This document shows, piece by piece, positions 15,451 to 39,569 of a DNA stretch of 64,000 bases. How positions within the stretch are numbered: the first letter of the stretch is position 1; the number at the start of each line of letters is the position of its first letter. The DNA is from Bacteroidaceae bacterium (GTDB lineage: Bacteria > Bacteroidota > Bacteroidia > Bacteroidales > Bacteroidaceae): the NCBI GenBank assembly GCA_017622815.1, contig JAGAQH010000029.1:1-64000 (forward strand), read 5' to 3'. The notes under the pieces are model-generated. The model ran no database searches, was not told where the DNA came from, and worked only from the letters and a program-made list of their open reading frames with translations. A program made the position numbers and the translations under genes.

Positions 15451-16302
15451 ATGGATGAAAAGATTGTAAAAGAATTGATTGATAGATTGATTGATTTGTC
15501 TTTTGCCGAAGATATAGGCGATGGTGACCATACTACCTTGTCGAGCATACCGGCCGATGCTATGGGTAAAAGCAAACTACTCATCAAGGAAGAAGGAATA
15601 TTGGCAGGTATCGAGATTGCCAAAATGGTTTTCCATCGATTTGACCCAACAATGAAGGTGGAAGTATTTATTGAAGATGGTACACATGTGGTGCCAGGTG
15701 ATGTGGCGATGGTTGTTGAGGGTAAGATTCAGTCTTTGTTACAAACAGAACGTCTGATGCTCAACATTATGCAACGTATGAGTGGTATTGCAACCATGAC
15801 CAGCCGATATGTGAAGAAGTTGGAAGGAACCCACACTCGTGTTCTTGATACCCGTAAGACAACTCCAGGTATGCGTATCCTTGAAAAGATGGCGGTTAAG
15901 ATCGGAGGAGGAGAGAATCATCGCATCGGTTTGTTTGACATGATCCTTTTGAAGGATAACCATGTGGATTTCTCAGGTGGTATTCATAATGCCGTAACCC
16001 GTGCTAAAGAATATTGCAAAGCAAAGGGAAAGAATCTGAAGATTGAATTGGAAGTTCGCAACTTTGACGAATTGCAACAGGCGCTAAACGAAGGTGTTGA
16101 TCGTATTATGTTCGACAATTTTACACCCGAAGATACCAAAAAGGCTGTCGAAATTGTTGCAGGCCGTTGTGAAACGGAATCTTCTGGTGGTATTACATAC
16201 GAAACCATGTTACCCTATGCACAAGCCGGTGTAGACTTCATTTCATTCGGAGCCCTTACTCATTCTGTAAAAGGCTTGGATATGAGTTTCAAGGCGTGTT
16301 AA
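15451..16302 (+). CDS. nadC: Nicotinate-nucleotide pyrophosphorylase, carboxylating (NadC)
   Basis: Quinolinate phosphoribosyltransferase: makes nicotinate mononucleotide from quinolinate and PRPP in de novo NAD synthesis. It has 283 residues. Motifs: EDIGDGDHTTLSSIP, QTERLMLNIMQRMSGIATMT, LDTRKTTPGMRILEKMAV, GGGENHRIGLFDMILLKDNH, and the phosphate-binding SSGGITYETMLPYAQAGVDFISFGALTHS. Together with nadE in this arm it covers two steps of NAD synthesis, though not in one operon. Confidence 0.97.
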   Translation: MDEKIVKELIDRLIDLSFAEDIGDGDHTTLSSIPADAMGKSKLLIKEEGILAGIEIAKMVFHRFDPTMKVEVFIEDGTHVVPGDVAMVVEGKIQSLLQTERLMLNIMQRMSGIATMTSRYVKKLEGTHTRVLDTRKTTPGMRILEKMAVKIGGGENHRIGLFDMILLKDNHVDFSGGIHNAVTRAKEYCKAKGKNLKIELEVRNFDELQQALNEGVDRIMFDNFTPEDTKKAVEIVAGRCETESSGGITYETMLPYAQAGVDFISFGALTHSVKGLDMSFKAC

Positions 16303-17001: not shown

Positions 17002-18036
17002 TTATTCTTTTTCTTTCATGGCTTGAGAAATCAGTGCTTCCAATTCTTCGGCCAATTCAGGATTGTCTTGAATCATTTGTTTGGCGGCATCTCTACCTTG
17101 TCCCAATTTCGTATCATTGTAACTATACCACGAACCGCTTTTCTTGATAATACCATATTGGGTTCCCAAGTCAATGATTTCACCCGAACGAGAAATACCT
17201 TCACCGAACATGATGTCGAATTCTGCACGACGGAATGGAGGTGCAACCTTGTTCTTTACAATCTTTACTTTGGTTTGCTTGCCTAATACTACATCGCCAT
17301 CCTTGATAGGTTGTCCCGGACGGATGTCAATTCGTACAGTTGCATAGAACTTTAGTGCATTACCACCTGTTGTAGTTTCAGGATTACCAAACATTACACC
17401 AATCTTTTCTCTTAACTGATTGATGAAGATACATGTGGTATTTGTCTTGCTGATTGCAGAAGTAAGTTTACGCAAGGCTTGTGACATCAAGCGTGCTTGT
17501 AGACCTACCTTGTTTTCTCCCATATCACCTTCTATTTCAGCTTTAGGGGTAAGGGCAGCAACAGAGTCGATGACAATGATGTCGATTGCCGATGAACGGA
17601 TGAGTTGTTCGGCTATCTCAAGAGCTTCTTCACCGTTGTTGGGTTGCGATATCCAAAGATTGTCAACGTCTACACCTAATTTAGAGGCGTAGAATCTATC
17701 GAATGCATGTTCAGCATCGATGATAGCAGCAATACCTCCTGCCTTTTGTGCTTCAGCTATCGCATGGATAGCCAATGTTGTTTTACCTGATGATTCAGGG
17801 CCATAGATTTCGATAATTCTACCTTTGGGATAACCACCAACACCTAATGCGGCATTCAGAGTAACCGAGCCGGTGGGAATCACTTCAACATCTTGGATGT
17901 TGTCATCACCCAACTTCATGATAGAACCTTTGCCGAACGATTTTTCAATCTTGTCCATCGCGGCTTGTAAAGCTTTGAGCTTTTCATTATTGCCTGCACC
18001 TGGAGTCAATTCCTGTTCATTTTCTTTTTTAGCCAT
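17002..18036 (-). CDS. recA: Recombinase A, copy 1 (AT-rich arm)
   Basis: RecA strand-exchange ATPase and SOS coprotease, 344 residues. Walker [10 protein letters not shown], the IDAEHAFD motif, Walker [16 protein letters not shown], loop L1 [21 protein letters not shown], and loop L2 [17 protein letters not shown] are all intact. A second complete recA lies at 41661-42689, clearly homologous but different in sequence and codon use. RecA is single-copy in Bacteroidales as far as I know, so the duplicate matters for how the window is read (see findings). Confidence 0.98.
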
Positions 18037-20126: not shown

Positions 20127-20359
20127 CGGCGAGTTGTAGTCAAAGCTGCTGCAACGATACATGGACTTTAACAACCGTCCATTATTGACTGATGCAGACC
20201 GCGTGTGACTCATGAACAAGCAGAAGTAAAGTCACTCACAGAATATAAAATGTTCAGGGTTATACAAGACAGAGAAATAATGGAGTGATTTTGAACGTCA
20301 ATTATAAATGTTATTTAAAGGTGATAATTCAACTTTATAATTTATTGGATTAACAAAGG

Positions 20360-20392
20360 AATAGCGTGCAACCATATAGTTACACGCTATTT
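20360..20392 (-). terminator. Terminator of the displaced dnaK tail
   Basis: Stem AATAGCGTGCAAC (20360-20372) pairs with GTTACACGCTATT (20379-20391). It lies 25 bases beyond the leftover dnaK stop codon and closely resembles the hairpin at 39502-39536 after the intact dnaK. Confidence 0.75.
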
Positions 20393-20416
20393 TCATATCT
20401 ATCAAGTTATTTACAA

Positions 20417-20440
20417 TTACTTGACTTCCTCGAAAACGAC
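20417..20440 (-). pseudogene. dnaK: Displaced 3' tail of a dnaK gene, left attachment site (attL)
   Basis: Read on the minus strand this encodes FEEVK followed by a stop (20417-20434), the conserved DnaK C terminus. The codons before it (V-V) no longer match DnaK. A similar terminator lies just downstream. Core TTGACTTCCTCGAA (20421-20434) repeats, with one mismatch, at 39574-39587 inside the end of the intact dnaK. The simplest reading is that an element integrated into the 3' end of dnaK, rebuilt the gene end on its integrase side and left this original tail at the far side. Confidence 0.75.
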
Positions 20441-20723
20441 TTTAACTGACTATCAATGCGTTAGCACTGGATGTTGCACACATGTCGCAAAATGGAAATA
20501 ACCATTGATAATCAACATGTTACAAAATCACAGCAAAGGTATATATTTCTCCCCGAATAACCAAAAGAAAACATAGAAAAAAAACATAAACTTGCCACAT
20601 TTTTTCTATTTGGATTGGTCGTACATGGAATAGGGAAGGCATCTATCCCATAATTATAGTGTCTTTATTGATGACCATCATGAGTTTCTCATTTACTTAG
20701 AATTGTACACGCTTATATTAAAA
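20441..20723. other. Non-coding left end of the element
   Basis: No gene is recognisable. It contains one inverted copy of the GTGGCAA motif (as TTGCCAC, 20592-20598) that is repeated in the integrase-proximal region 37040-37300, so it may hold a recombinase or excisionase arm site. Confidence 0.4.
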
Positions 20724-20753
20724 GTGCCTCGTTGATTCACATCAGCGAGACAC
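20724..20753 (-). terminator. Terminator of the defence operon
   Basis: Thirteen-base stem GTGCCTCGTTGAT / ATCAGCGAGACAC (G-U pairs at two positions) with a TCAC loop. On the minus strand it is followed by TTTTAATAT. It lies 10 bases past the 56-aa gene and so marks the end of the operon. Confidence 0.8.
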
Positions 20754-20762
20754 ATTCTAAAA

Positions 20763-20933
20763 TCACTTTTCTTTTCTAACGCCTTTGAATGGAGTTCCGT
20801 CTTGTTTTCCATCCATAAACCGTCCATTAGGACCACGTTTGGTCCAAATTCCAGTCTTGGGATTAAAAACTTGGCTTCTCTGGCGTACCATTCCGTTTCT
20901 GTGACCATCGCCACTTGGAGGATTTGTTGCCAT
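20763..20933 (-). CDS. 56-aa glycine/lysine-rich small protein, last gene of the defence operon
   Basis: Short open frame of 56 residues starting MATNPPSGDGHRNGMVRQRS and ending PFKGVRKEK. It is basic and Gly-rich and looks largely unstructured. Segments such as GDGHRNG, QVFNPKTG, GRFMDGKQDG and PFKGVRKE recall a small conserved protein I have seen in other bacteria without an assigned function; I cannot name the family. Support for expression: it lies 71 bases after the TIR gene on the same strand and is followed directly by a strong terminator. A competing 73-residue frame over the same bases has no such resemblance. It might be a modulator or partner of the TIR protein, but that is inference. 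Confidence 0.72.
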   Translation of the reverse strand: MATNPPSGDGHRNGMVRQRSQVFNPKTGIWTKRGPNGRFMDGKQDGTPFKGVRKEK

Positions 20934-21004
20934 ATACAATTTTTACCCGTCCTTTTCGGGAATATTAAGTGACTGCATGTTTCAGGCAGCCGTAATTATT
21001 TTCT

Positions 21005-21775
21005 CTATCCATTTATTAATTCTGCAATTTCTTCTGCAATTTCTTCAACCGTATACGAAGCTGTATTACGGGCTACTTTGTCGGCGAGTGATGGCGAGTA
21101 GTCTAATACCTCTTGCTTGGTAATGCCATGCCAAACAGGAAGGAGTACCTGCTCTCCTGTGATGGCTTTAGAAATAATTCCATCTAGTTCATAGTTAGTC
21201 CAGCCCTTTTTTATGAAAGACTGAGACAGTACTACGATACCAAATTTGCTCTTAGCTAAACCTCTGTCTATCTTTCTTCGAAGACTGTCGCCAATCTTTA
21301 GCTCAAACTCGTCATACCAAACCTTCATCCCTTTGGTCACTAGTGCTTGAGCTAATGGGCGTACCACACTATCTTTGTCTTCAGAGGCATGTGAGATAAA
21401 CACATCATATTCCATATAATTGTCTTCAGAGTCACCAATAATAATAGGCTCTTTATGCAACAATGAGGGAACAGAAGATAAAGGAGGCTCTCTGTATTCA
21501 GGTAGAGGGCTGGGCAGTTTACGTACAGAAGATCTTACAGAACCTCTTAAACCTCCAAGGTCAATGGTCACATACCAATGACCTGAACGAGGAATCGTTA
21601 GTACAGACGGTGAACGCCTCATGAGTCCGCCATAATAACTATGGCGGCGCCCATGTTTGTAGTTGTTATAGTTGGAACTGTCCATCAGTCTCACGTTGGC
21701 AGCATTGCCACTGAGTGTTACTTGAACTTGTTCTCCTTTACTACACTGATGTAGGTCATAAACTTGATACTGCAT
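21005..21775 (-). CDS. DUF1883-TIR domain protein
   Basis: Two-domain protein of 256 residues. Residues 1 to about 90 match DUF1883, a small beta domain (MQYQVYDLHQCSKGEQVQVTLSG, later SGHWYVTIDLGG). Residues about 123-256 are a TIR domain: YDVFISHASEDKDSVVRPLA (box 1), VWYDEFELKIGDSLRRKIDRGL (box 2 region), IVVLSQSFIKKGWTNYELDG, with Glu in NYELD as the likely NADase residue. Bacterial TIR proteins in defence islands cut NAD+ or make cyclic ADP-ribose signals upon infection. DUF1883 may be the sensor; its ligand is unknown. It lies five bases after the GIY-YIG-like gene. Confidence 0.88.
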   Translation of the reverse strand: MQYQVYDLHQCSKGEQVQVTLSGNAANVRLMDSSNYNNYKHGRRHSYYGGLMRRSPSVLTIPRSGHWYVTIDLGGLRGSVRSSVRKLPSPLPEYREPPLSSVPSLLHKEPIIIGDSEDNYMEYDVFISHASEDKDSVVRPLAQALVTKGMKVWYDEFELKIGDSLRRKIDRGLAKSKFGIVVLSQSFIKKGWTNYELDGIISKAITGEQVLLPVWHGITKQEVLDYSPSLADKVARNTASYTVEEIAEEIAELING

Positions 21776-21780
21776 GGTTT

Positions 21781-22083
21781 TTACTCTTTAGTGGTGTTAG
21801 TAATTTCATAGCAGTACACATACACACTGTCATCAGAGCCTCCGCCAGTGTCACCTTCCATGCCTTTAGCCAGATAGTACTCCTCCACCTTTTGGGCTGT
21901 AGCCTTGTCTGTAGCAGTACGATATATCCACCAGGCATTTTCCTTACTTACATTGTGTTCAACAAATAGCCTGCGCTCAATGTTATTAGTTATTCCAACA
22001 TAAAAGTTAGAATAATACTGTTTCGAACTCTTCTGAAGATGAGCATCGAAATCTGCAATAATTTCTTTTGCGGTCAATCTCAT
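21781..22083 (-). CDS. GIY-YIG-like small protein
   Basis: One hundred residues. The segment NFYVGITNNIERRLFVEHNV fits the opening strand and helix of the GIY-YIG nuclease fold (YVG-IT replacing GIY...YIG, with Arg in the helix), and KVEEYYLAKGMEGDTGGG supplies a conserved Glu plus a Gly-rich turn. Whether it is an active nuclease is uncertain, because the first tyrosine motif is divergent. It is separated from the TIR gene by five bases, so the two are almost certainly cotranscribed and may act together. Confidence 0.6.
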   Translation of the reverse strand: MRLTAKEIIADFDAHLQKSSKQYYSNFYVGITNNIERRLFVEHNVSKENAWWIYRTATDKATAQKVEEYYLAKGMEGDTGGGSDDSVYVYCYEITNTTKE

Positions 22084-22164
22084 AATTCAATCTATTAAAA
22101 TTGTTACTAATTCAAATTTACACCGCAAAAATAGGCTCTAACATTGCAGCCTTACTTCATTGTT

Positions 22165-23193
22165 TCAGAAAGCATTTCTTTGTTTACAATTTTTAACTAT
22201 TATTTTAGCTCTTTTCTCTATTTTGTTGCGTAGACTATTTGGCTCTATTATCTGGCAGTTGTTCATAAATCCGAGAATAGCTGTCTCAAACTCATAGTTA
22301 AAGATTAGGTTCATCTCTATCAAAACATAGTTCTCATTCTGCTCAATTATCTTTTGACTGCTATGCAGCGGTTTAGAAATCATGTACTCAGCATCAGGAT
22401 ATCCCACCTTTAATACAACTTTTTCCTTTTTCGCTTTGATATTGACAGATACACCAACCACCTGACTAAAGTACTCGTCTAAGTTCATACCTTGATAAGT
22501 TTGGTATACCACATCTTTTGCTAACTCAAACTTATCTATACGGTCAAGAGGCAAGTTCACTAATGGCAGTTTACCTGCCATGTCTGGTTCCATTCCTACC
22601 AAAAACCATCTGTTGTTGAATTGCCTTAATTGGTAGGGATGTATTTTTCTTTTTTTGGTGCTCTTTCTATACTTATAGTAATATACGTATAGTACCTTTT
22701 GATTTATAATAGCATCCATCAGTGGCTCAAAGTGCTTCATGCCTCTTAAATAAGGATTGTGGTCGAAAGCAACAATGCCATCAGGTCTTTCGCCTAGATG
22801 GAACGTATCTTCCAATCTAGCCAGTGTTTCTTCTATCCAAAGATAGTTGGGTAAACCTTTTAGCCTGCCTAGCATCCTTATCATTTCCTCCAGTCTCCCC
22901 ATATCCTCTTGGGTTAAGGGCATATTCATTATAGAAAAAGTAGGGTCAGCATAGTAATAATAGGCTTTATGCCCCACCATGCCTTTCTTGATAGGGGCAG
23001 AATAACCCTCACTATCCATCATATAGCTGATGTCTTTTCTAATGGTTCTATCTGAGACTTCAGTCCCATAATAATAGTAAATATCCTTATTGACAATCTC
23101 TATCAGATCATCCATAAAATACCTTTTGCTTCGGTCTCTGAAGCATCTGTCTAATACTTTATGCCTCTCAAAGGCATTCTTTGTTGCTGGCAT
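22165..23193 (-). CDS. WYL-domain transcriptional regulator
   Basis: A 342-residue protein with an N-terminal winged-helix region (about 1-75, including EVSDRTIRKDISYMMDSEGY) and a WYL ligand-binding domain (about 135-225: LYVYYYKYRKSTKKRKIHPYQLRQFNNRWFLVG is its core; quoted here in full only as positions near 170-200), then a WCX-like C-terminal extension. WYL proteins are frequent repressors of phage-defence operons such as BREX and CBASS (BrxR, CapW), sensing nucleic acid or nucleotides. The gene starts three bases after the anticodon-nuclease-like gene, so it is inside the operon and may autoregulate it. Confidence 0.88.
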   Translation of the reverse strand: MPATKNAFERHKVLDRCFRDRSKRYFMDDLIEIVNKDIYYYYGTEVSDRTIRKDISYMMDSEGYSAPIKKGMVGHKAYYYYADPTFSIMNMPLTQEDMGRLEEMIRMLGRLKGLPNYLWIEETLARLEDTFHLGERPDGIVAFDHNPYLRGMKHFEPLMDAIINQKVLYVYYYKYRKSTKKRKIHPYQLRQFNNRWFLVGMEPDMAGKLPLVNLPLDRIDKFELAKDVVYQTYQGMNLDEYFSQVVGVSVNIKAKKEKVVLKVGYPDAEYMISKPLHSSQKIIEQNENYVLIEMNLIFNYEFETAILGFMNNCQIIEPNSLRNKIEKRAKIIVKNCKQRNAF

Positions 23194-23196
23194 ACT

Positions 23197-25434
23197 CTAA
23201 TTCTCTTCAGTACTAACACTACTTTCACCTTCTTTAGTAGCTGGTCGCATCATCATTTCGTAATGCTCCTTCTGATTCATCTTCTCAAATATTTTTTTGA
23301 ACACAGCTTTATGACGTTCAAGTTGCCCTTCAGACAATTCAACGAAGATGTCATCAGGAAAGGAATGAGAACCATCATTAACCCAACTTAGCAATGATCT
23401 GCATATTTTTCTTTCTTCTGGAACATCGAATCTCTCAAGGATATATTCTGGACTAAATCCACCTAATATCTGGAAGTAGTTCTCAACAATCCTACGCATG
23501 ATATTCTGTATTACCACATGCGACTTAACATCATTAGAGTTTTTGTATTCATGCCATAGCAGGTCATATGAACTCTTGATAGGGTTATCCTTCATAAAGG
23601 GCTGTATTGAGGATATATTGTCATTCTTTCTTAATATCCAGAAATAAACATCATCTCTCCATTTGCAATATCTATCAATAAAAGAAACTTCTTTGTGGAA
23701 GTAAACATTGTGGGTAAGCAGTATAACCTGTTTAATATTGGTATTTTCCTCATGAATAGTTGTGAATACCTCCCTAATTAACGTGCTTACAACAAAAAGA
23801 ACACTACTATCCAAACTTGAAACAGGGTCATCTATAACCAACACCCTGCTACTGGTAATACCACTATTGCTAAAACTACCTTTCACTAACTGCATATAAT
23901 ATAAGAAGGTCAGGAAAGTGATTTCACCCTCACTTAGTGTTTTATATGCTAATTCTCCATTTTCTCTTACAACGTGGTATTGATTATGGCCTTCAATAGT
24001 TTCTTCGATGTGAAAACCAGTGAAGCCAAATCCAGACAGCATTTTATTCATTTCTATGACAGTAGGCTTTATGCTAGTCATATTTGTTTCAAGTGTTCTG
24101 ATTTCATGCCTTAATTCCAAATACCTTTTTCTTGCATCTTTAATCTTTGCGTTTAAAGCAGATACGCCCTTAACAGTGTTCTTACACAATTTATCGTAGG
24201 CTTCTAGTTTTGCATGTTCAGATTTCACGAAAAACTGCCATATACTCTTTATCAGATTATCCCTCTCGCTATTAAAGTTATTTACAAGATTATTATGCTT
24301 AACAATTTCATCATTTGTACTTTTGATAAGAGCATTCATTTCCTCAATTATATCTTTGGTAGAAGGTAAAACAACCTGCCTGCTTGGCTCCTTTGCTTTC
24401 TGAATCATAATCCCAGATATTTCTGAAATCGTCGCATTAAAAGCTTTAATCAAAGATTCTATCTGAATTATATCAAGAAAGCTCTTAGGCATACCTTTTT
24501 GCCCCTCCACCATAATTTTTAGCCTATAAACAATATCGTCGCAATATGCTTTATAGTTGGCTTGCATGTTATTTATTTCAGCAACATCCTTCTTATATCC
24601 CTCATCAAAGAAATTATTCAGTTTATTCCTGAAATCTCCATTAATAGTATGTTGCTGGCAGAAAGGACAGACGTCACTTCCATCTTCCACGAACTGCTGG
24701 CCTTGGCTAACCCAATCAGACATTCCCAATTTCTTAATCAGAGCAGCAATATCTACATCTTGTTTACCCACTACTACCTTTCTCCACAATTCAGATTCCT
24801 CAATACCGAATAAGACAGAAGCATCTACAGTTTCAATATGAGTTTGTGAGATTGGAGGTTCACCAAAAAGCAGCTTTGCCTTTCCCCGTAGGACTTCAAC
24901 ATCTTGCACATTATCTTCAAATAAATCAAAGCATTCTACCAGCCTATCTTTAAATGTTTTTTTGTACTTAAATCCTTTACAAGCATCTGAAAACTCTGGA
25001 TATTTCTTATAAACATTATCCCATAGGTACAATATTAAATTATTTTCTTCTGCGTTTTTCTTTTCATTCAATTTATCGATATTCTTCTGATAATTTTTCC
25101 CTTCTTCCTCTATTTGGTTGAGTTGCTCATTTTTTTCCTTTATAATATTCTCTTCTTCAATAGTTGCTTCACCAAGAGTAAAGATTCCAGGCATATTTTC
25201 AACAAAGTTCCGATCCCGGAAATCCTTGTTGTATGCTAAGACATCAAGCGGAGTATTATCAGCCCAATCGATAAAACACTCAGGATATTTACCCTCTGTA
25301 TCACTCAGCACTTTGCTAATAGTACTTTTCCCAGTTCCATTAGCACCATAGATAATGTTCACCTTTTGTAGGTTCTCAATCATAACCTCTTCATTAAACG
25401 AGGCTTCATTCAAGATTTTTATAGACTTAATCAT
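23197..25434 (-). CDS. RloC/PrrC-like anticodon-nuclease ATPase (AAA_13)
   Basis: A 745-residue ABC-type ATPase. Walker A IIYGANGTGKST (about 27-38), signature LSEGE near residue 515, Walker B VLVIDDPVSSLDSS and H-switch ILLTHN define the head. Long coiled coils flank CPFC at 256-259, a candidate zinc hook as in RloC. The C-terminal region has Arg647/Arg648, Glu651 and His690 in RRIVENYF...NDGSHS. This spacing recalls the Arg-x3-Glu...His catalytic triad of PrrC/RloC anticodon nucleases, which cut tRNA on phage infection. The start overlaps the RloB-like stop (ATGA). Family membership is firm; tRNA cleavage is predicted, and the tRNA target cannot be told. Confidence 0.82.
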   Translation of the reverse strand: MIKSIKILNEASFNEEVMIENLQKVNIIYGANGTGKSTISKVLSDTEGKYPECFIDWADNTPLDVLAYNKDFRDRNFVENMPGIFTLGEATIEEENIIKEKNEQLNQIEEEGKNYQKNIDKLNEKKNAEENNLILYLWDNVYKKYPEFSDACKGFKYKKTFKDRLVECFDLFEDNVQDVEVLRGKAKLLFGEPPISQTHIETVDASVLFGIEESELWRKVVVGKQDVDIAALIKKLGMSDWVSQGQQFVEDGSDVCPFCQQHTINGDFRNKLNNFFDEGYKKDVAEINNMQANYKAYCDDIVYRLKIMVEGQKGMPKSFLDIIQIESLIKAFNATISEISGIMIQKAKEPSRQVVLPSTKDIIEEMNALIKSTNDEIVKHNNLVNNFNSERDNLIKSIWQFFVKSEHAKLEAYDKLCKNTVKGVSALNAKIKDARKRYLELRHEIRTLETNMTSIKPTVIEMNKMLSGFGFTGFHIEETIEGHNQYHVVRENGELAYKTLSEGEITFLTFLYYMQLVKGSFSNSGITSSRVLVIDDPVSSLDSSVLFVVSTLIREVFTTIHEENTNIKQVILLTHNVYFHKEVSFIDRYCKWRDDVYFWILRKNDNISSIQPFMKDNPIKSSYDLLWHEYKNSNDVKSHVVIQNIMRRIVENYFQILGGFSPEYILERFDVPEERKICRSLLSWVNDGSHSFPDDIFVELSEGQLERHKAVFKKIFEKMNQKEHYEMMMRPATKEGESSVSTEEN

Positions 25435-26009
25435 ATTTCAGCACTCCTTTTACTTCCTACCTCTTTCAGAAATTCAATCAATTTGTAGATGCCTGTTGAT
25501 GGATTTTGGAACTCACACAATTTCTTTGCTCTTGCAACTGCTACATCTGTATTGTTATTCAAGAAAGTCTTTTGAGTATCGGTAAAGGCAGACTTGGAAT
25601 AATTTTTCCATACAGGTGCACTTCTCTTCAATTCTTTGATAAGTGCATCTGTATCAATAGCAGCCTTTTGGTCTTTTGCATGTAGCAACAGCCATATTTC
25701 AAAACAAGGATTGCTTAATAGCATTTCCGCTTTACACTTAAGCAACTTCTCGTTGATGGCTTGTACATCCATATCGTACATGAGAAATGTGTGTACCTTG
25801 TCCCATTGTGAGATTTTGAGTTCTTTTGTACGCTTCTCAACCAAGGATGGTGTTATCTTTGTACCCTCTATGTGTGAAACAATTCTAATGGGTGACTTGT
25901 ACCACGTCTTCAAAAGATTGATATAGCCGACCTCTGTTTCGCCCTCACAGATAACAAGGGCGATTTTCCGCATCCGCATGGATCGTGCAGGTTCTCTTTT
26001 GCTTGCCAT
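25431..26009 (-). CDS. rloB: RloB-like protein (AbiLii type)
   Basis: A 192-residue RloB-family protein. A Toprim-like core is suggested by IALVICEGETEVGYIN (acidic Glu) and FLMYDMDVQ (Asp-x-Asp), followed by the family hallmark NPCFEIWLLLH. RloB genes occur in restriction loci and, beside an AAA ATPase, as the second gene of AbiL-type abortive-infection pairs. Here the ATPase is directly upstream (four-base gap) and the anticodon-nuclease-like gene overlaps downstream. A nuclease role is plausible from the fold but not shown. Confidence 0.87.
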   Translation of the reverse strand: MASKREPARSMRMRKIALVICEGETEVGYINLLKTWYKSPIRIVSHIEGTKITPSLVEKRTKELKISQWDKVHTFLMYDMDVQAINEKLLKCKAEMLLSNPCFEIWLLLHAKDQKAAIDTDALIKELKRSAPVWKNYSKSAFTDTQKTFLNNNTDVAVARAKKLCEFQNPSTGIYKLIEFLKEVGSKRSAEI

Positions 26010-26013
26010 AGAG

Positions 26014-27243
26014 TCAATCTTCTAACAATTGTTTGATACTTGATACGGATGAGTCAACATATGGAACGGCATCGAATCGTCCTTGTATATAACCTTTTTC
26101 GGCATCCATGTTTTCACGGAAATCCTTGAAGTCATAGAGAGAATAGACATCTGTTGCGCCATCCTCGGACTTATTAACAAATACTATCTGGTCTCTTCTC
26201 AATCTTTTAACGTCAATAAGATTTGTATTATGGGATGAGAACAGCAACTGGCTTCCTTCTGACGCATGGATTAAGTCGAGTATGAAGTCTGCTAATCTAG
26301 TATGAAGTCCCATGTCGAACTCATCCATCATTATACCTTTTCTGTTTTTGACAACATCAAGCAAGCGAATCAAAATTTGGAAGAGTTTTCTAGTTCCATT
26401 GGATTCCTCCATATCCATATCAAACATTACGTCAGTTTGATTGCGATGATATGTCTTGAATTTCAAAACATCAATAAGTTTGAAGGACAATTCAGATTGA
26501 CCAGGAATAGCAACAGGTGCAGGAATCTGTTCTTTTCTGGCTTCAATATCCGTAATGTCAGTATCACATATCTCAAGAGCCTTTAGGATTACTTTCTTGT
26601 ATGTATTAAAACTATCAAGTACCATCATTTCATTGACATTTACAAGACCCAATAGGAACTGATTCATGAAATAACGATAAAGTCTTTGCGCAAACTCTCT
26701 GTTCATGGAGCTTGCTCTACTTAAAAACAGGTTTTTATCGCTTGTATTCAAGACAACATCGGATGGCTTTGTGATAATTCCCGTACCAAAACTATATTCC
26801 CCGTCAGGTTGTCTTACAAAAACCTTTGCACGTCTTCCAACAGGGTAATGATATAAACTTTCTGAAATGATACGATCCTTGGTCAGCTCAAACGAATATT
26901 CATATTCAACATTCTCGCAAACAAAATCTATCAGGAATTTACTTGGTTTGTTCTGCCATCCTTCAAATTTGAATGGTTCGAAGTTAAAGATTGTACCTTC
27001 ATTATAAAGGTGTGAATCCAAAATCATTCTACAACAGAAATTGATAGCTTTAAGAATGTTTGATTTTCCTGATGCATTAGGTCCAAACAGACCAACAGAT
27101 TTTAGAATAGGTATACCGTTCCACTCCAATATATTGTGTCTTAATTCACGAGCTAATGTCGTATTGATATTGGCTGCACGAAAGTCAATTCTGATTCTAT
27201 CTCTAATTGAGAAGAAATTTTCAAATTCGATTTTTAATATCAT
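26014..27243 (-). CDS. rloA: RloA-like AAA ATPase (AbiLi type)
   Basis: A 409-residue ATPase of the AAA_15/AAA_21 (OLD-like) group. It begins MILKIEFENFFSIRDRIRID, the typical N-terminal strand pair. Walker A is GLFGPNASGKSN, Walker B is GIMMDEFDMGLH, and LLFSSHNTNLID is the H-switch. The ATG at 27241-27243 is preferred to a longer frame because it gives the standard start and leaves room for a -7 element at 27271-27278. It is the first gene of the minus-strand defence operon and pairs with RloB as in AbiL systems; it probably senses infection and licenses RloB. Confidence 0.87.
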   Translation of the reverse strand: MILKIEFENFFSIRDRIRIDFRAANINTTLARELRHNILEWNGIPILKSVGLFGPNASGKSNILKAINFCCRMILDSHLYNEGTIFNFEPFKFEGWQNKPSKFLIDFVCENVEYEYSFELTKDRIISESLYHYPVGRRAKVFVRQPDGEYSFGTGIITKPSDVVLNTSDKNLFLSRASSMNREFAQRLYRYFMNQFLLGLVNVNEMMVLDSFNTYKKVILKALEICDTDITDIEARKEQIPAPVAIPGQSELSFKLIDVLKFKTYHRNQTDVMFDMDMEESNGTRKLFQILIRLLDVVKNRKGIMMDEFDMGLHTRLADFILDLIHASEGSQLLFSSHNTNLIDVKRLRRDQIVFVNKSEDGATDVYSLYDFKDFRENMDAEKGYIQGRFDAVPYVDSSVSSIKQLLED

Positions 27244-27270
27244 CTTATATGGGTATTTGTAGAATTTCTG

Positions 27271-27278
27271 CAAATATA
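27271..27278 (-). promoter_or_regulatory. Possible -7 element of the defence operon
   Basis: TATATTTG on the minus strand, 28 bases upstream of the RloA ATG, matches TAnnTTTG. No TTTG -33 box is seen at the usual distance, so the promoter may depend on an activator or be weak. Confidence 0.4.
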
Positions 27279-27432
27279 ACAACTAAATTTTATTTTTAGA
27301 TGCTTTTGAGTAAGAAATGTGCTTTAAAAATGTTTTTTTAACTATATAACCTGTTTTTGTAGTGGTTATCGTCATGCGCAGTAGTTCAAGTGGCAGATTT
27401 CAAAGATATTGTTATGTTCAGTATCAAGACAT

Positions 27433-27741
27433 GTTCAATACCATTGAACAAACAGTATTTATTGAACAAAATCAATGTCTGTAAATAAAGAAAATGGAAT
27501 ATTATTGAGCTATAAGTCTAAAAAATATCGAGTTATAGCTCAATAGTTTAAATCTTCTTAAAGTTCAAGATTTTGATTTGCAAGCTTTTGACGCTAATCG
27601 CTGATGTCTATTCTATGCCGAAAATATGAAATTACTGAAACGGCCTGTTTCAGTAATTTCAAATTGATTCTCAATTCTTCGTAATTCTGCATCAGCTTGG
27701 TGCAGAATTGGTAGATTCAAAACTCCAATAAGCTGTTGGAG
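27433..27741. other. Series of five stem-loops in the gap beside the defence operon
   Basis: Inverted repeats: 27433-27449 (7-base arms), 27503-27515 with 27533-27545 (13, perfect), 27628-27641 with 27647-27660 (14, perfect, 5-base loop), 27683-27691 with 27701-27709 (9, perfect), and 27723-27728 with 27736-27741 (6). No gene covers the first three. They could be a structured RNA, terminators of lost genes, or protein sites. Confidence 0.6.
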
Positions 27742-27976
27742 AATTGCAGATTGTGTTAACCATGGCATAATTTACCCAACCAAGAACTATAGACAGAGCG
27801 AGTGTCTTCTTGTAAAAAGAGTGCAAGAAACAAAACGAATGATGAGCAACATGAATCAGAAATTCAGATACATTAAGTCCATCCACACGTTGAAGTCCGA
27901 TAGCGATTGCCCAATTATTGGCTCTTTCCCTAACAGATTCATCTGGATGGTTCTTATATTCCTCAAATAATGTCAT
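27692..27976 (-). pseudogene. Truncated VbhA-type antitoxin
   Basis: From the ATG at 27974-27976 the protein reads MTLFEEYKNHPDESVRERAN, then NWAIAIGLQRVDGLNVSEFLIHVA. This matches the start of Bacteroidales VbhA-family antitoxins, which normally continue for about 50 more residues and precede a Fic toxin. Here, after about 45 residues, the sequence turns into unrelated hydrophobic residues and ends, and no Fic gene is near. I read it as the 5' remnant of a Fic-linked antitoxin with its 3' part and toxin lost by deletion, the junction lying near 27850. Confidence 0.6.
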
Positions 27977-28091
27977 GTTTTTTCTTTTAGAGGAACAAAA
28001 AAGCACGAGATGGGCAAATCCTGACCATAGAATTCTTTATTATGGAATATATTTAATACTTTTGCGTTAGGATTAAATATATTGGGGAATA

Positions 28092-28292
28092 ATGACAAAT
28101 CTAAATCGGATAAAAGTAGTACTTGTTGAACAACAGAAGACAGGTAAATGGTTGGCAGAACAAATGGGAAAATCCGCTTGCACAGTCAGCAAATGGTGTA
28201 GTAACTCCAGTCAACCTGATTTGGCAACATTAGATAAAATCGCTACATTATTAAATGTAGATAGACGAGAACTGATAGCACCTTCGAAATAA
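28092..28292 (+). CDS. XRE-family helix-turn-helix regulator
   Basis: Cro/C1-type DNA-binding protein of 66 residues, essentially one helix-turn-helix domain (WLAEQMGKSACTVSKWCSNS is the turn and recognition helix, then PDLATLDKIATLLNVDRREL). It is a common first gene of Bacteroidales defence or restriction cassettes. A -7-like TACTTTTG lies at 28057-28064, 27 bases upstream, with no good -33 box. The HNH gene follows 32 bases after its stop, so it probably controls the genes downstream. Confidence 0.88.
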   Translation: MTNLNRIKVVLVEQQKTGKWLAEQMGKSACTVSKWCSNSSQPDLATLDKIATLLNVDRRELIAPSK

Positions 28293-28324
28293 CAGTTCCT
28301 TAGTTGTTAAAGAATAAAAATGCA

Positions 28325-29398
28325 ATGATACAAATCCCTCAATCCAATACACTGACCACCCGCCACCTCAATAGAGTATTTGACAAAACCGTGGCCACCT
28401 ACAAATATTATTGGTTCCTCGGGATCCTTGACTTGTACGTGAAGCAAGGGAAGACAAGAATGGATGTATGGGAAATTATGATTTCCATGGTGGCTAATGC
28501 ATGGTTTCCTGTTAACTATTTCCGACTCTCATTCGGCAAGTCTGAATCGCTCTATGAGACAATCTTGGCATTACAAAAGGAGAATGATATTCCAATCAAT
28601 ATTGGAGTAAGGGATTTGACGAATTTGCTTCAAGTTTTGACTCAACGTCAAGATATTCGAAAGCAACTAAATTTTCTGCAATTGAATGTTCCTTTCCGTT
28701 TCCTTCGTCCATGGATTGATACTTCGGATGACAGAGAAATGGTTAAACGTTCACAAACATTTGAAAATGGTTGTTTGTATAAACTCGAAAAAGAAAATGG
28801 AACGTTGTGGGTAGAGTTAAACCCCATATGGCTAATTTATTTGCAAGAGAATTACGATATACTTAGTTCTTTTGCCTATTGGGGATTGACCAATTTCTTA
28901 CAAGTTCGTAACCCGAATGTTCCTAATATTCCAAGTAAATTGATAAAAAAAGAGGAGAGAAACTCCTTGTCAGCTCAAAGGAAGTTTTGGAACACTGCTA
29001 TAAATGGCGGATTGAAGGTAAGATGTCTCTATACGGACAAATTGTTGGAAGAACGTGAATACGACCTTGATCATTTTATCCCATGGAGTTTCGTCTCACA
29101 CGATTTGCTTTGGAATCTTATGCCTGCTGATTCAAGTATCAATAGTTCAAAAAGTAATAAATTGCCAGACTTGAATTTGTATCTTCCAAAGTTGGCAGAA
29201 GCTCATCAAGCTGCATTACGAATAAACCTTGAAAAGGGAAAGCAAGATAAATTGTTGGAAGATTATTTGTCACTAGGGCATACTCCGCAAGACATAGCAT
29301 TAATGGATAGAGAGCATCTACTTGATTGCTTTTTTCAGACATTTACTCCAATGAATCAAATTGCGCTCAATATGGGATTTGAATTATGGAAATATTAA
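28325..29398 (+). CDS. HNH endonuclease domain protein
   Basis: A 357-residue protein with an HNH nuclease motif in its C-terminal half: CLYTDKLLEEREYDLDHFIP, then WNLMPADSSINSSKSNKLPD. The Asp-His pair, central Asn and final Asn/Lys are present. The N-terminal 200 residues, helical and aromatic-rich, match nothing I can name and may recognise DNA. I use the ATG at 28325; a TTG seven codons earlier is possible. It lies six bases before the methyltransferase-HIT gene, so the two are an operon behind the XRE regulator. Confidence 0.8.
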   Translation: MIQIPQSNTLTTRHLNRVFDKTVATYKYYWFLGILDLYVKQGKTRMDVWEIMISMVANAWFPVNYFRLSFGKSESLYETILALQKENDIPINIGVRDLTNLLQVLTQRQDIRKQLNFLQLNVPFRFLRPWIDTSDDREMVKRSQTFENGCLYKLEKENGTLWVELNPIWLIYLQENYDILSSFAYWGLTNFLQVRNPNVPNIPSKLIKKEERNSLSAQRKFWNTAINGGLKVRCLYTDKLLEEREYDLDHFIPWSFVSHDLLWNLMPADSSINSSKSNKLPDLNLYLPKLAEAHQAALRINLEKGKQDKLLEDYLSLGHTPQDIALMDREHLLDCFFQTFTPMNQIALNMGFELWKY

Positions 29399-29404
29399 AG
29401 GCCT

Positions 29405-30523
29405 ATGCAAACAGAAAAAATAAATCATCCATACCTTACGGCAATCAAACGGACAGATTTGTCAGTGCCCACTCGATACCTTTTACAACACAACTTGTTG
29501 AAGGGACGTATTCTTGACTTCGGTTGCGGATTCGGGTATGATACGGATGAGTTGAAAAAAAGGGGGTATGATATCATAGGTTATGACTATTATTACCGCC
29601 CTGATTATCCCGAAGGGAAATTCGATACGATTATTTGTAACTATGTGCTGAATGTATTGGAACCATACGCCCAAGCCGAAGTGCTGATGAATGTCACTAA
29701 CTTGCTTTCACCTAAGGGTACGGCCTATTTTGCCGTGCGCCGTGACTTAACAGAAGAAGGTTTCCGACTTCATGCCATTCACAAGCAGTACACTTATCAA
29801 TGTAATGTGAAACTACCCTTCCAAAGTTTGACACATAACGGTAGCTATGAATTGTATCAATACAATCATTTTAATAAATTGCCACGTAAGGAAGGTGAAA
29901 CTTGCCCTTTCTGTAAATTGTCTCGGAGAGTTGAAATAATCTGTGAAACGGCTACTTGCGTCGCTTTCTATGATGGCTATCCCGTTTCACCTGGCCATGC
30001 TTTGGTTATACCTAAACGCCATGTTGCAAATTACTTCGAACTCACGAATCATGAGCGAGAGGCCATGAATGTAATGCTACAATATGTAAAGCGAAAGATT
30101 GATGAGCGCTTTCATCCTGACGGATATAATGTCGGTATCAATGTGAACGAAGCAGCAGGTCAGTCGGTATTCCATGTACACATGCATCTCATTCCTCGCT
30201 ATATAGGTGATGTAAAGAATCCTAAAGGTGGTGTGCGTGGGGTGATACCGAGTAAACAAAAGTATTCTACAGAAGAAAAACCATATAGTAAAAATGAATC
30301 CACAACCCTTGCACGAAGAGGGCAAAAATGGGATAAAAATGATGATGAGAGGTTATGGGATTTACTTATGCGTAAGGTGTCAATAAATGAACTTGCACTA
30401 ATTTTCCAACGTTCAAAAAAATCCATTATTTATCGTTTAAGGAAGTTGCAAAAAGAAAAACCTATGCAAGAGGATATCTTCACTGAATATTATAAAGTTT
30501 TTGGGGAGCGAATAAGTGAATAA
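29405..30523 (+). CDS. Methyltransferase-HIT hydrolase fusion with C-terminal DNA-binding-like tail
   Basis: Three-part protein of 372 residues. Residues about 30-150 are a class I SAM-dependent methyltransferase (ILDFGCGFGYDTDELKKRGY motif I, FDTIICNYVLNVL). Residues about 165-285 are a HIT domain (CPFCKL start, VSPGHALVIPKRH, catalytic HVHMHLIPR), which hydrolyses or transfers nucleotidyl groups. Residues about 305-355 (GQKWDKNDDERLWDLLMRKV, later RSKKSIIYRLRKL) resemble a Myb/SANT-like helix-turn-helix. The substrate of the methyltransferase is unknown; no DNA-methylase target motif (DPPY type) is visible, so a small-molecule or RNA target is as likely as DNA. Confidence 0.85.
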   Translation: MQTEKINHPYLTAIKRTDLSVPTRYLLQHNLLKGRILDFGCGFGYDTDELKKRGYDIIGYDYYYRPDYPEGKFDTIICNYVLNVLEPYAQAEVLMNVTNLLSPKGTAYFAVRRDLTEEGFRLHAIHKQYTYQCNVKLPFQSLTHNGSYELYQYNHFNKLPRKEGETCPFCKLSRRVEIICETATCVAFYDGYPVSPGHALVIPKRHVANYFELTNHEREAMNVMLQYVKRKIDERFHPDGYNVGINVNEAAGQSVFHVHMHLIPRYIGDVKNPKGGVRGVIPSKQKYSTEEKPYSKNESTTLARRGQKWDKNDDERLWDLLMRKVSINELALIFQRSKKSIIYRLRKLQKEKPMQEDIFTEYYKVFGERISE

Positions 30524-31717: not shown

Positions 31718-32368
31718 TTATTTCCTCCATTGCAATTCTATCAGCTGCATCCGTTCATGAAGTGCAACATTGTCTCGAATAATAAATCCAGTTAACCCCA
31801 TGAAAATTGTCCATAGACATATTAGGATAATGAGTAGCAGATTTCTGATATGCTTACTATGCCAAATTCGTTTGACACAATAGCAGGGTATATCAACCAG
31901 AATATATGAGATCAAGCCTTTGGGAGTATGAGGCATCACAGGAAATTCATAGGAATGCTGTAGGCTGTTTTGGATATGGTCATTAATAGCAGTCAATTGC
32001 ACCTCAATTTTCTCAATGGCAGTCTTTTCTTTTTCTCGTTCCTTGTTCGCCAGATAGAAGTTATGGTAGACTTTATCCCAATAAATAGAAATTTTCTTTA
32101 ACTTATTGATTTGCTCTTCATAGATTTCGGATATGGAATTTTCATATTCCTCCGTTTCCGCGTTTCTTTTCTCTTCTTCCTCTTTAAATTTCTGTTGGCG
32201 TTTCTCCAACAAGATTCTGACCTCATTGGCTGCAGCCTGGGCTATTTTATTTTCTAATTCACTCCAATTAGGAACGTTTTTGGATGATTGCGAAGTATTA
32301 TTCTTTTTGAGTTCCTCAATGCTCTGCCGTATGCTACTGAGATTGGCAGCTATTATATCTTCTTTCAT
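31718..32368 (-). CDS. Mobilization-linked coiled-coil membrane protein
   Basis: A 216-residue protein without a recognised domain. Residues about 1-125 are charged helices with coiled-coil character (KRQQKFKEEEEKRNAETEEY). Residues about 175-197 form one membrane helix (LLLIILICLWTIFMGLTGFI). It overlaps the relaxase stop by one base, so it is the last gene of the mobC-relaxase operon. Similar membrane proteins accompany Bacteroides mobilization genes and may present the relaxosome to the helper's secretion channel; that role is inferred from position. Confidence 0.7.
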   Translation of the reverse strand: MKEDIIAANLSSIRQSIEELKKNNTSQSSKNVPNWSELENKIAQAAANEVRILLEKRQQKFKEEEEKRNAETEEYENSISEIYEEQINKLKKISIYWDKVYHNFYLANKEREKEKTAIEKIEVQLTAINDHIQNSLQHSYEFPVMPHTPKGLISYILVDIPCYCVKRIWHSKHIRNLLLIILICLWTIFMGLTGFIIRDNVALHERMQLIELQWRK

Positions 32369-33420
32369 TATCTTCTTCTTTTATAGGTCCGATTATTATT
32401 GTTATCCTTATCTTTGTCATCATCGCGCCATCCACGATTGTCACTACCGCCACCTCCACCAGTTTCTACTTGATGGGGCTGAAGCAAGAACTCAATCATA
32501 GCTTCACCAACGGCTGACGAGGATGTACTGTCTGTACTTCCGCTTTCCGTCAAATTGGAATCAGTGGTTATGGTATGCCCATTGGAATGGTTAACAGGAA
32601 CCTCATTTTTTACAAAAGAAGAAAAAGTCTTCTCTTCATATGGATTTGAACTTTCCTGAATTCTTCTTTCGCCCAATTTAAGACATAGTTGGCCATAGGT
32701 TAATACCTTTGATTCCAATTTGGATCCAGATATACTTATTTGATGGTTCGCAAATGAAATACCTCTGATTGTATTTGTTTGGCTGCTTGTGAAGAAGCGG
32801 CTGCTGATTCCTGCTTCTTTCAGTAGTCTGCAAAATTCTTCCCAATTGGATGACTTGTCCAGAATATTGTTGATGTCCATTCTCAGTTTATGTTTCTTGG
32901 CCTCATACCCACGTAATCTGTCTTCATGGATTTTCTTGCTTTTGGATGGAGCCACATACAATCCATATTTCTTGTTGAGTAGTTTGCATACCGCCATATT
33001 CCGTATTCGTTCACGACTATCAGAAATGACATTGCCATCGTTATCTATTCGATTAAAGACAAGATGACAATGGGGGTGCTCGGTGTCAAGATGTCTGGCG
33101 ATGATGTATTGCGTATTGCCGATACCCATTTCTTTCATCCAATCTTTAGCAATCCTTACCATGAGTTCATCACCCTCTTTATCGTCAGTGAAAAGATGGG
33201 CATCGTTGGGAGAGAACCCTAACGAAATATGCTTGACAGGTTTCGCAATCTTCGTATGCATGGATGCTTGGATTGTGAAAGAATCGGCTATCGATTTGTT
33301 GCTGATGATACATACATCCTTAAAATCGATGAGTCGTGCTTTCTTCTTGTCATTGTCGTAATCATGGGCATAATCCACGATACCTGTAAATGATTCTCTT
33401 GTCTTTATCTTTGCTATCAT
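32368..33420 (-). CDS. Relaxase / mobilization nuclease
   Basis: A 350-residue MOB relaxase (PF03432 type) that would nick oriT and pilot the strand into a recipient. It begins MIAKIKTRESFTGIVDYAHD, a usual relaxase start. The metal-binding three-histidine motif is HLDTEHPHCHLVFNRI, about residues 108-123. The likely tyrosine nucleophile lies in the N-terminal 20 residues (VDYAHDY). The C-terminal part is low-complexity, Ser/Thr- and Gly-rich, ending in basic residues. It begins three bases after the mobC stop. Confidence 0.93.
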   Translation of the reverse strand: MIAKIKTRESFTGIVDYAHDYDNDKKKARLIDFKDVCIISNKSIADSFTIQASMHTKIAKPVKHISLGFSPNDAHLFTDDKEGDELMVRIAKDWMKEMGIGNTQYIIARHLDTEHPHCHLVFNRIDNDGNVISDSRERIRNMAVCKLLNKKYGLYVAPSKSKKIHEDRLRGYEAKKHKLRMDINNILDKSSNWEEFCRLLKEAGISSRFFTSSQTNTIRGISFANHQISISGSKLESKVLTYGQLCLKLGERRIQESSNPYEEKTFSSFVKNEVPVNHSNGHTITTDSNLTESGSTDSTSSSAVGEAMIEFLLQPHQVETGGGGGSDNRGWRDDDKDKDNNNNRTYKRRR

Positions 33421-33889: not shown

Positions 33890-34198
33890 TTAGTGTACAT
33901 TACAATGCAGTGTAATACTACGTTTCGGAATATGTCTGACATGGATATGTCTTGTAATTCCATCGTTAAATACCAAGTGTTTATGCGAGAAACATTCTGA
34001 AGCAATTGCTTCTTCGATTAGATTATAATCAATTACTTTATGCACCGCATGATTTTTAACCATATAGGTGAGCGTATTATTCTTGAATGGATGTCTCATT
34101 CTCTGTAATGTCAAATTTTGTTTTTCTTGTTTTCTATACTTCTTCATATTCGTAAAATTTATGGTCGTTTGACCAGTTATGTAAATTGATATGTTCAT
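33890..34198 (-). CDS. Small hypothetical protein of the element
   Basis: A 102-residue basic open frame whose ATG overlaps the DUF3987 gene's stop (ATGA, 34195-34198), which supports translation. An internal ATG at 34145-34147 would give 85 residues. No domain is recognised; the sequence is His- and Lys-rich (HSH, RHIHVRHIPKRSI). It lies between the replication genes and the candidate oriT. Function unknown. Confidence 0.5.
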   Translation of the reverse strand: MNISIYITGQTTINFTNMKKYRKQEKQNLTLQRMRHPFKNNTLTYMVKNHAVHKVIDYNLIEEAIASECFSHKHLVFNDGITRHIHVRHIPKRSITLHCNVH

Positions 34199-35973: not shown

Positions 35974-36559
35974 ATTCTTCGTATTTAGGGTTTATGTATG
36001 CTTGTGGGTCATACGGTAAAAAACATGAGCGTGCAACATCACTTCCAGAACTATCGACAGGCGGCAATCCTGTAGCATGAATGCAATTGGCAACCGACTT
36101 GAAGTATCTTGAATGTTCCCAGTTTTTCAGGTCGATGGAGATTATCCATTTTACTCCATCACCTGAAGGACTCGTAAACATCAACTCCGTATCAAAATAT
36201 TCATGATTAATGAGTTTTTGTTTGAGAGCTTCGGGTTCCGTTACATGGTCAAAGTCAAGACACATCAACCCTGAATGTGTTATTATTTCCCTTTCGTTCC
36301 TCTTTCTGAAAATTCCAGAGAAGGTACAATAGTCAAAGTGTGTAGCTTTGTATTGTTTCGCTTCTTTGGAGGATTCAATAGAACGTAAAGTCAAGGTTTG
36401 TTTCTTGGCATAAAGACCTGTAACATATCGATAGACATCTACCACAGTGATTGCACGATATGGCTCAATGTTGTGGATTGGTTTCAGGAAGAAGGAGAAT
36501 GCTGTAAGATTCTCCAATCCTTCCCAGTAATCATTGGTTCCGTTCGTTTCTCTAATCAT
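35924..36559 (-). CDS. BT4734/BF3469-family (VirE_N) primase-like protein
   Basis: A 211-residue protein. HSGLMCLDFDHVTEPEALKQ and GDGVKWIISIDLKNWEH carry the conserved Asp residues of this primase-polymerase-like (archaeo-eukaryotic primase) N-terminal domain, and SGSDVARSCFLPYDPQAYINP is the family's C-terminal hallmark. In many elements it is fused to the DUF3987 part; here the two are separate overlapping genes. Its ATG overlaps the upstream HTH gene's stop (ATGA). Confidence 0.88.
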   Translation of the reverse strand: MIRETNGTNDYWEGLENLTAFSFFLKPIHNIEPYRAITVVDVYRYVTGLYAKKQTLTLRSIESSKEAKQYKATHFDYCTFSGIFRKRNEREIITHSGLMCLDFDHVTEPEALKQKLINHEYFDTELMFTSPSGDGVKWIISIDLKNWEHSRYFKSVANCIHATGLPPVDSSGSDVARSCFLPYDPQAYINPKYEEYVQENIFTPRMGDCPF

Positions 36560-39345: not shown

Positions 39346-39501
39346 GTTTTCTACTTTTAAGTTTTACTGAGTCTTTTTTAGATGAATAAGTATGTTTATG
39401 TTCAACCTTATCTACCATTTTGTCTTGTGTAACGATATGTAACAAAAAAGCCGTAAAAAAAGGCAGAATAAGCACATAGAAAACATGAGCCTATAAAAAG
39501 C

Positions 39502-39536
39502 AAATAGCGTGTAACTCATTGAGCTACACGCTATTT
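39502..39536 (-). terminator. Terminator of intact dnaK, at the element's right end
   Basis: Stem AAATAGCGTGTA / TACACGCTATTT with an inner CTC/GAG pair, 33 bases after the dnaK stop. It resembles the hairpin at 20360-20392; this copy would have been brought by the element. Confidence 0.85.
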
Positions 39537-39569
39537 GATAGTGTTTTAGTATGTCTTTACTTACATGCC

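Follow-up and report, generated by a model that had tools for sequence, protein, structure and literature searches.

A seven-gene run of RloA-RloB, RloC-like, WYL and TIR genes on a probable mobile element of a Bacteroidaceae genome, read as a candidate layered abortive-infection cassette

The stretch of DNA analyzed here, called the window throughout, comprises positions 1 to 64,000 of contig JAGAQH010000029.1 from a Bacteroidaceae bacterium (GCA_017622815.1), a draft genome of 42 contigs that is 88% complete. In the open reading frame (ORF) listing of the window, seven ORFs run from 27243 to 20763 on the minus strand as a unit of about 6.6 kb, referred to below as the cassette. A preliminary description had placed seven genes at these positions and named amongst them RloA and RloB, an anticodon-nuclease ATPase, a WYL regulator and a TIR protein; all seven ORFs were recovered there, and Pfam and PADLOC profiles matched the component kinds. 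The Pfam families scoring above their cut-offs were AAA_21, RloB, AAA_13, WYL, WCX, DUF1883 and TIR_2. From rloA to p56 the junctions consist of a gap of 4 bases, an overlap of 4, and gaps of 3, 81, 5 and 71, in agreement with the overlaps or gaps of 3-5 bases described earlier among the first four genes, and the two longer gaps split the run. Downstream of p56 lies a hairpin with a T run, as expected from the single terminator proposed for the end of the run; its fold z-score was -3.26 in the window, and the same hairpin gave -3.58 and -3.53 in two of the close copies introduced below (L018 and L020; L denotes loci and G genomes). Coordinates are collected in Table 1.

Table 1. Positions of the cassette genes, their candidate signals and the surrounding element in the window.
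Feature	Position	Strand	Remarks
rloA	27243-26014	minus	409 aa from its ATG; longer listed ORF begins at upstream TTG
rloB	26009-25431	minus	192 aa
rloC-like	25434-23197	minus	745 aa
WYL regulator gene	23193-22165	minus	342 aa
GIY-YIG-like small protein gene	22083-21781	minus	100 aa
DUF1883-TIR gene (tir)	21775-21005	minus	256 aa
p56	20933-20763	minus	56 aa; PADLOC PDC-S38
Intrinsic terminator	20700-20765	minus	hairpin and T run after p56
TAnnTTTG box, candidate first promoter	27271-27278	minus	before rloA
Two TAnnTTTG boxes, candidate second promoter	22126-22133, 22113-22120	minus	in gap 22084-22164
Tyrosine integrase	37508-38785	minus	Phage_integrase E 1e-20
HTH_17/AlpA-type protein	38785-39345	minus	beside integrase; HTH_17 E 6.2e-17
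Replication-type genes (DUF3987/PriCT_2, BT4734-like)	34195-36559	minus	
Relaxase	32368-33420	minus	Relaxase E 1.3e-31
Terminator hairpin of presumed dnaK	39499-39537	minus	probable attachment site
Distal hairpin repeat	20356-20393	minus	past cassette; probable attachment site

RloA is an AbiLi-type ABC ATPase (PADLOC AbiLi, E 2.2e-79) whose Walker A stretch G54-K60 and residues D307-E308 were invariant across seven aligned sequences. RloB is an AbiLii protein of the TOPRIM type (Pfam RloB, E 6.6e-26; PADLOC AbiLii, E 1.7e-23), with E22, D79 and D81 invariant across eight aligned sequences; the available part of PMC10440598 describes RloB both as OLD-TOPRIM related and as AbiLii. Neither protein matched a solved structure in a structure-database search.

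The third protein was matched by Pfam AAA_13 (E 2.2e-162), by PADLOC PDC-S06 (E 8.1e-251) and more weakly by PrrC (E 2.6e-12). Its ABC ATPase motifs and CPFC hook (C256, C259) were invariant in the alignments, and R647, E651 and H690 were invariant together with the two cysteines in seven sequences, the others being 27-40% identical to the window's; in a second set of 13 sequences, position 651 was Glu in 10 and Asp in the other 3. In Geobacillus RloC, according to the available text of PMC2610378, R692, E696 and H737 are needed for activity and the zinc hook regulates it, while PMC3710099, in the part available, assigns the anticodon-nuclease domain of RloC to the HEPN superfamily. The conserved residues point to a zinc-hook anticodon-nuclease ATPase. 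Comparison with solved structures matched about 45 N-terminal positions only.

The fourth gene encodes a protein with WYL (44.5 bits) and WCX (29.6 bits) matches, both above the Pfam cut-offs, and no Pfam DNA-binding domain was matched in its N-terminal part. Relatives above 40% identity were confined, amongst 201 genomes of the family, to the window's genome and G524. WYL regulators control the cyclic-oligonucleotide-based antiphage signaling system (CBASS) and bacteriophage exclusion (BREX) according to the available portions of the literature. In the small GIY-YIG-like protein, Y28, G30 and H43 were invariant, an Arg and a Glu were kept in four of five relatives, and the first motif was not clear; a weak match of its profile to solved structures (E 0.012) was judged to be chance. 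Plasmids and phages yielded no match to it and viral contigs no relative. A relative in G202 (L095) belongs to a type I restriction-modification (R-M) locus, where HsdS and a SAVED-HNH gene flank it and a Schlafen/AlbA gene follows.

The sixth protein joins DUF1883 (E 2.7e-30) to TIR_2 (E 3.4e-20), and PADLOC PDC-S66 (E 1.9e-72) matched its TIR part only. This part was similar along its length to the AbTIR NAD+ hydrolase structure 8g83 (E 5.7e-55), 7uwg was also aligned, and the motif WTNYEL holds a Glu that aligns to both structures and that we take to be the TIR catalytic glutamate. The DUF1883 part matched structure 2b1y (E 3.3e-12). On these conserved residues the protein is a predicted NADase; prokaryotic TIRs often produce isomers of cyclic ADP-ribose (cADPR), as stated in the available part of PMC10022894. 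The last protein, p56 (PADLOC PDC-S38, E 3.1e-31), showed 15 invariant columns in 15 sequences and no Pfam match, and its profile gave short beta-trefoil matches to solved structures (E 2.9e-5, with no stretch passing alone) that were judged to be chance.

Co-occurrence of the whole gene order in other genomes, which the preliminary description had proposed as a check, was examined by a contig scan over 84,980 species that took close peptides of the RloC-like protein as its seeds, a design that would miss copies of 40-80% identity. Amongst the 13 loci returned, L018 to L021 encode an RloC-like protein 88-95% identical to the window's and share its gene content and order, such that the order recurs in five of five close copies (window, L018 with L126, L019, L020 and L021) as far as the contigs show. 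Three copies are complete and contiguous (window, L019, L020). One is split over two contigs: L018 begins inside rloB, and rloA with the start of rloB stands at the end of L126, apparently in the same genome (G524). The last, L021, starts partway through rloA, and the assembly has this gene with a broken frame. No whole-gene loss was seen amongst the five. The remaining nine loci (27-33% RloC-like identity) showed no further cassette gene in the DNA read, of which some had little on one side. At the DNA level, L019 matches the window over 20417-27307 and L020 over 20712-27316, which at this place is the cassette only, plus about 300 bases in L019; L126 shares extra upstream DNA in pieces (25765-28289 and further), and flanking content differs among the close copies.

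Promoter-like signals would probably divide the run. The -7 box of Bacteroidales promoters has the consensus TAnnTTTG, and TTTG is usual at -33. The box before rloA recurs in L019 and L020, where it differs at free positions only, and both boxes between the WYL and GIY genes are present in five of five copies, their differences likewise confined to free positions; with 44 TAnnTTTG occurrences on the minus strand of the 64 kb, about 0.06 would be expected per 81 bases. A second transcription start before the GIY gene is likely, and readthrough from the WYL gene is possible. Given the boxes between the WYL and GIY genes, the earlier view of the run as one operon is a possibility only. Two small hairpins without a T run can form in the tir-p56 gap (20934-21004; z -1.58), and a long inverted repeat of 15-16 pairs at 27627-27661, upstream of rloA, has a terminator-like form on both strands.

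The genes of the cassette also differ in their apparent age. Between the window and L019/L020, synonymous divergence (dS) was saturated and not computable for rloA (nucleotide identity 76.7/76.8%) and reached 0.96/1.11 for rloB, and it was 0.23/0.38 for rloC, 0.26/0.13 for giy, 0.20/0.13 for tir and 0.23/0.50 for p56. The WYL frame ends earlier in L019 and L020, and the WYL dS between the window and L021 was 0.13. Against G524, the window gave 0.09 for rloA, 0.15 for rloC and 0.16 for tir, which makes these two one rloA type; L019 and L020 differed from each other by 0.22 for rloA, 0.24 for rloC, 0.19 for tir and 1.05 for p56 (56 codons). Sliding windows placed the divergence shift around rloB to early rloC. 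Because the synonymous divergence of rloA and rloB is far older than that of most of the back end, segments have been exchanged within the cassette: two old rloA types are joined to younger middle and back parts, and p56 marks a further break.

This pattern bears on one alternative, in which the seven genes form a single integrated system and RloA/RloB are the front end, a swappable sensor by which a constant RloC-WYL-GIY-TIR-p56 back end is switched on. Different RloA/RloB alleles would then perhaps read different phage triggers, and RloC, the WYL switch and DUF1883-TIR with the GIY protein and p56 would act in sequence. A saturated rloA dS beside low rloC and tir values, together with the rloA type shared by the window and G524, is what such an exchange would leave behind, and a run on the Phocaeicola plasmid pPvulCL10_1 (RloA, RloB, TIR, SIR2, TIR and p56 on one strand) has a similar layout with other effectors. 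However, exchange reached beyond the front end, as the p56 value between L019 and L020 indicates, such mosaics are also explained by plain recombination, and amongst the regions read RloAB more often occurs unaccompanied by the other genes. We regard an integrated system, and the allele-specific triggering that goes with it, as quite improbable.

The latter observation comes from 16 rloA regions, selected from the 64 genomes that gave a match out of 201 in the family, one of the 16 being the G524 copy. In 11 of the other 15, rloB was recognized beside rloA, and none of the 15 held WYL, GIY, TIR or p56; one of them (L138) encodes a separate, weakly RloC-like protein (E 8e-5). Because lone RloAB is the commoner form in these regions, RloAB seems to need no partner. 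In G434, the rloB of L124 (902-1477) looks mosaic in the alignment, its second half lying near the window's and its first half resembling L125; its DNA match to the window is restricted to 253 bases.

The remaining genes were followed in an order sample of 393 genomes, own included and apparently one set, with thresholds of 1e-20 for RloC-like, 1e-15 for TIR/DUF1883 and 1e-4 each for GIY-like and p56. Matches were found in 4, 11, 8 and 8 genomes, respectively. Besides the own genome, eight of the ten TIR/DUF1883 matches covered the TIR domain only, G344 matched DUF1883 only and G300 the whole protein. Two non-own genomes hold two such genes, adjacent in both (p56 and GIY in G186, p56 and DUF1883 in G344, the latter locus, L086, with a weak GIY-YIG match near the pair), and RloC-like coincided with none of TIR/DUF1883, GIY-like or p56 outside the own genome. 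The DUF1883-TIR relative in G300, 73% identical, lies beside AbiTii and HsdS. Plasmid records with a DUF1883-TIR match numbered 391, and in 114 the match spanned 80% or more of the query; two of these plasmids viewed in context (one scanned, one by annotation) carried a divergent TIR gene, and GIY, p56 and rlo genes were absent from both.

The neighbors of p56 were considered separately. In a 5.5 kb Klebsiella plasmid and a Yersinia ruckeri plasmid, p56, DUF1883 and one more small gene lie divergent from a WYL or weakly WYL-like gene. Adjacency in these plasmids and in G344 had prompted the idea of a strict p56-DUF1883 functional pair, which was downgraded on the viral p56 loci: amongst the 80 kept of 81, with flanks of up to 4 kb, DUF1883 was found in none and any partner tested in two (one WYL-like, one DUF2188). 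Five viral DUF1883 loci were found separately and stand outside this count. Across the p56 loci read (window 20763-20933; L098, L097, L099, L086, L092, L104 and L106-L111) the gene is widely spread with changing neighbors, namely a multiubiquitin-E1 pair, Panacea, DndB, DUF1883, GIY-like and RloAB-TIR-SIR2, and it is also present in early regions of Staphylococcus and Streptococcus prophages.

These separate occurrences favor a second alternative, in which RloAB, RloC and DUF1883-TIR are separate systems that merely share a mobile element and the WYL protein regulates one of them or none jointly. Lone rloB-rloA pairs (11/15 regions), the G300 relative beside AbiTii and HsdS, RloC relatives that elsewhere adjoin type I R-M or a methylase, the mosaic divergence and the second candidate promoter are all consistent with plain co-travel. 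The close junctions inside each half (overlap of 4, gaps of 3-5), one terminator for seven genes and the absence of whole-gene loss in all five close copies argue against it, and we consider this explanation rather unlikely. The preliminary description had held that homologous loci always split into two independent modules, rloAB-rloC-WYL and TIR-GIY, would speak against its proposal; the more distant relatives examined are indeed split and rloA/rloB has a history different from that of most of the rest, whereas the close copies are unsplit.

Mobility itself is suggested by the surroundings. The region at 20.4-39.5 kb encodes a tyrosine integrase, AlpA/HTH_17, BT4734-like, DUF3987/PriCT_2, relaxase, RhuM and HNH proteins, and its integrase end abuts a gene at 39570-41474 that is presumably dnaK. 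The hairpin past the cassette is an imperfect recurrence, in the same orientation, of the dnaK terminator hairpin. L020 has two identical 40-base copies, one behind dnaK at 7299-7338 and the other at 15876-15915; between them lie the cassette and a single additional ORF but no integrase, and we read this copy as an element segment without its own integrase. The hairpin also lies behind dnaK in L126 and past the cassette in L021; the pattern was found in neither L018 nor L019. Three copies (window, G524, L020) sit behind dnaK. Repeats of at least 11 bases common to the cassette edges (20300-20760 against 27240-27700) were absent, and attachment-type repeats emerged only when the whole element was considered. 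Altogether, the window cassette is probably, on this arrangement, cargo at the far end of a hairpin-bounded integrative mobilizable element in the dnaK terminator.

Within the genus, dnaK was matched in 12 of 15 genomes, own included. Near dnaK, G594 and G599 have relatives of the integrase and the AlpA-type protein (50-58% identical); the regions of G598, G592 and G591 yielded none. G598 and G592 have the dnaK terminator hairpin and no element-integrase match behind it in the 16-18 kb examined, and the sequence beyond the window's distal hairpin had no counterpart in the regions of these two genomes. In G590, 117 bases are 96% identical to the element end, after which the contig stops. A methyltransferase-HIT domain fusion (29405-30523) adjoins the cassette beside an HNH gene (28304-29398). 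The window also holds two genes that we take to be recA (17002-18036 and 41661-42689), with proteins 78% identical; the second lies beside dnaK as in L020, and the extra one just beyond the distal hairpin.

Taken together, we think it somewhat probable that the run is a layered, co-mobile abortive-infection cassette of known modules under a shared WYL switch. It looks composite, given the candidate second promoter, the modules that also occur apart and the mosaic divergence, and an assembly of known modules fits the finding that RloAB, RloC and DUF1883-TIR have more distant relatives unaccompanied by other cassette genes. We infer from sequence the promoters, the WYL regulation, every enzymatic activity (from conserved residues), the order of action and the protection. 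RloA, RloB, RloC and WYL would likely form one unit, and the GIY-YIG-like protein, the DUF1883-TIR NADase and p56 a second. The ABC ATPase RloA would be the probable sensor, paired with the TOPRIM nuclease RloB, and the zinc hook of RloC would keep its anticodon nuclease in check until the DNA suffers damage or alteration. WYL would keep one or both promoters low until infection or DNA damage relieves the repression, whereupon RloAB and RloC would cut nucleic acid or halt translation; should infection persist, DUF1883-TIR would consume NAD+ or make a cADPR isomer.

Several observations weigh against this layered reading. The GIY-YIG profile matched from its position 14 at 18.8 bits, below the cut-off of 22.6, and p56 is a small protein without assigned function. 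No TTTG box lies 18-22 bases upstream at either candidate promoter, and a short inverted repeat between WYL and GIY was rejected as a terminator (z -0.12, 0.03 and -0.78); because neither a TTTG at the -33 distance nor a terminator between these genes is present, one long transcript is possible. Additionally, because the five close copies form one recent family, their agreement is weak evidence of selection on the whole set.

The component kinds are known and the novelty lies in their combination. The preliminary description did not recognize this combination as one described system, and likewise no description of it was found in the open-licence literature, which takes in few preprints and no subscription papers. 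An ABC-TOPRIM nuclease, an anticodon nuclease and a TIR NADase, three kinds of cell-shutdown weapon, stand whole with one WYL switch in five genomes, and the carriers are gut and rumen bacteria. If the modules cooperate, the cassette would offer a small natural test case for the stacking and ordering of suicidal defenses and a test of ABC ATPase sensor exchange on a fixed effector set. It also places the catalogue-only PADLOC candidates PDC-S06, PDC-S38 and PDC-S66, along with the GIY-like protein, in one testable context.

Compared with known systems, the front end resembles AbiL in having an ABC ATPase gene followed by a RloB/TOPRIM gene, with PADLOC matches to both and the ATPase and TOPRIM residues kept, and differs from it in five further genes, the known form being the pair alone, as in 11 of the 15 other regions read. 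The phage anti-restriction-induced system (PARIS, AriA/AriB) likewise pairs an ABC ATPase with a separate TOPRIM nuclease in the available part of PMC12409363, as do other ABC-TOPRIM systems, but the TOPRIM protein here is of the RloB type. PARIS was rejected since its AriB partner is missing: the RloB protein matched AbiLii and no AriB model at E 0.1 in PADLOC.

The third protein shares with RloC a Rad50-like ATPase, a CxxC zinc hook and an Arg-Glu-His triad, spaced by 4 and 39 residues here and by 4 and 41 in Geobacillus RloC, as given in the available text of PMC2610378, and differs in its cassette setting with RloAB and WYL; in that same portion of the source, linkage of RloC to type I R-M is called rare, and neither RloA nor RloB is named. 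PrrC with a type Ic R-M system was rejected, as no R-M match was found among the cassette genes and the neighboring proteins scanned (a subset of the window ORFs), and no RloC relative was found in viral contigs. As with BrxR and CapW, to the extent of the published text available, a WYL protein lies inside a defense locus, but here it is the fourth gene of the run and directly upstream of a candidate second promoter.

The TIR part matched the ThsB1 profile of Thoeris (PADLOC, E 1.2e-46) as well as the AbTIR structures of the AbTIR-type NADases, whereas here DUF1883 is fused in front of TIR and no ThsA partner is among the seven; Thoeris was rejected, as none of the seven proteins matched a ThsA model among the PADLOC families listed. 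The pPvulCL10_1 run differs in the presence of SIR2, and RloC, WYL and GIY are not annotated there; it shares with the cassette the leading RloA and RloB, the TIR genes, the terminal p56 and the single strand.

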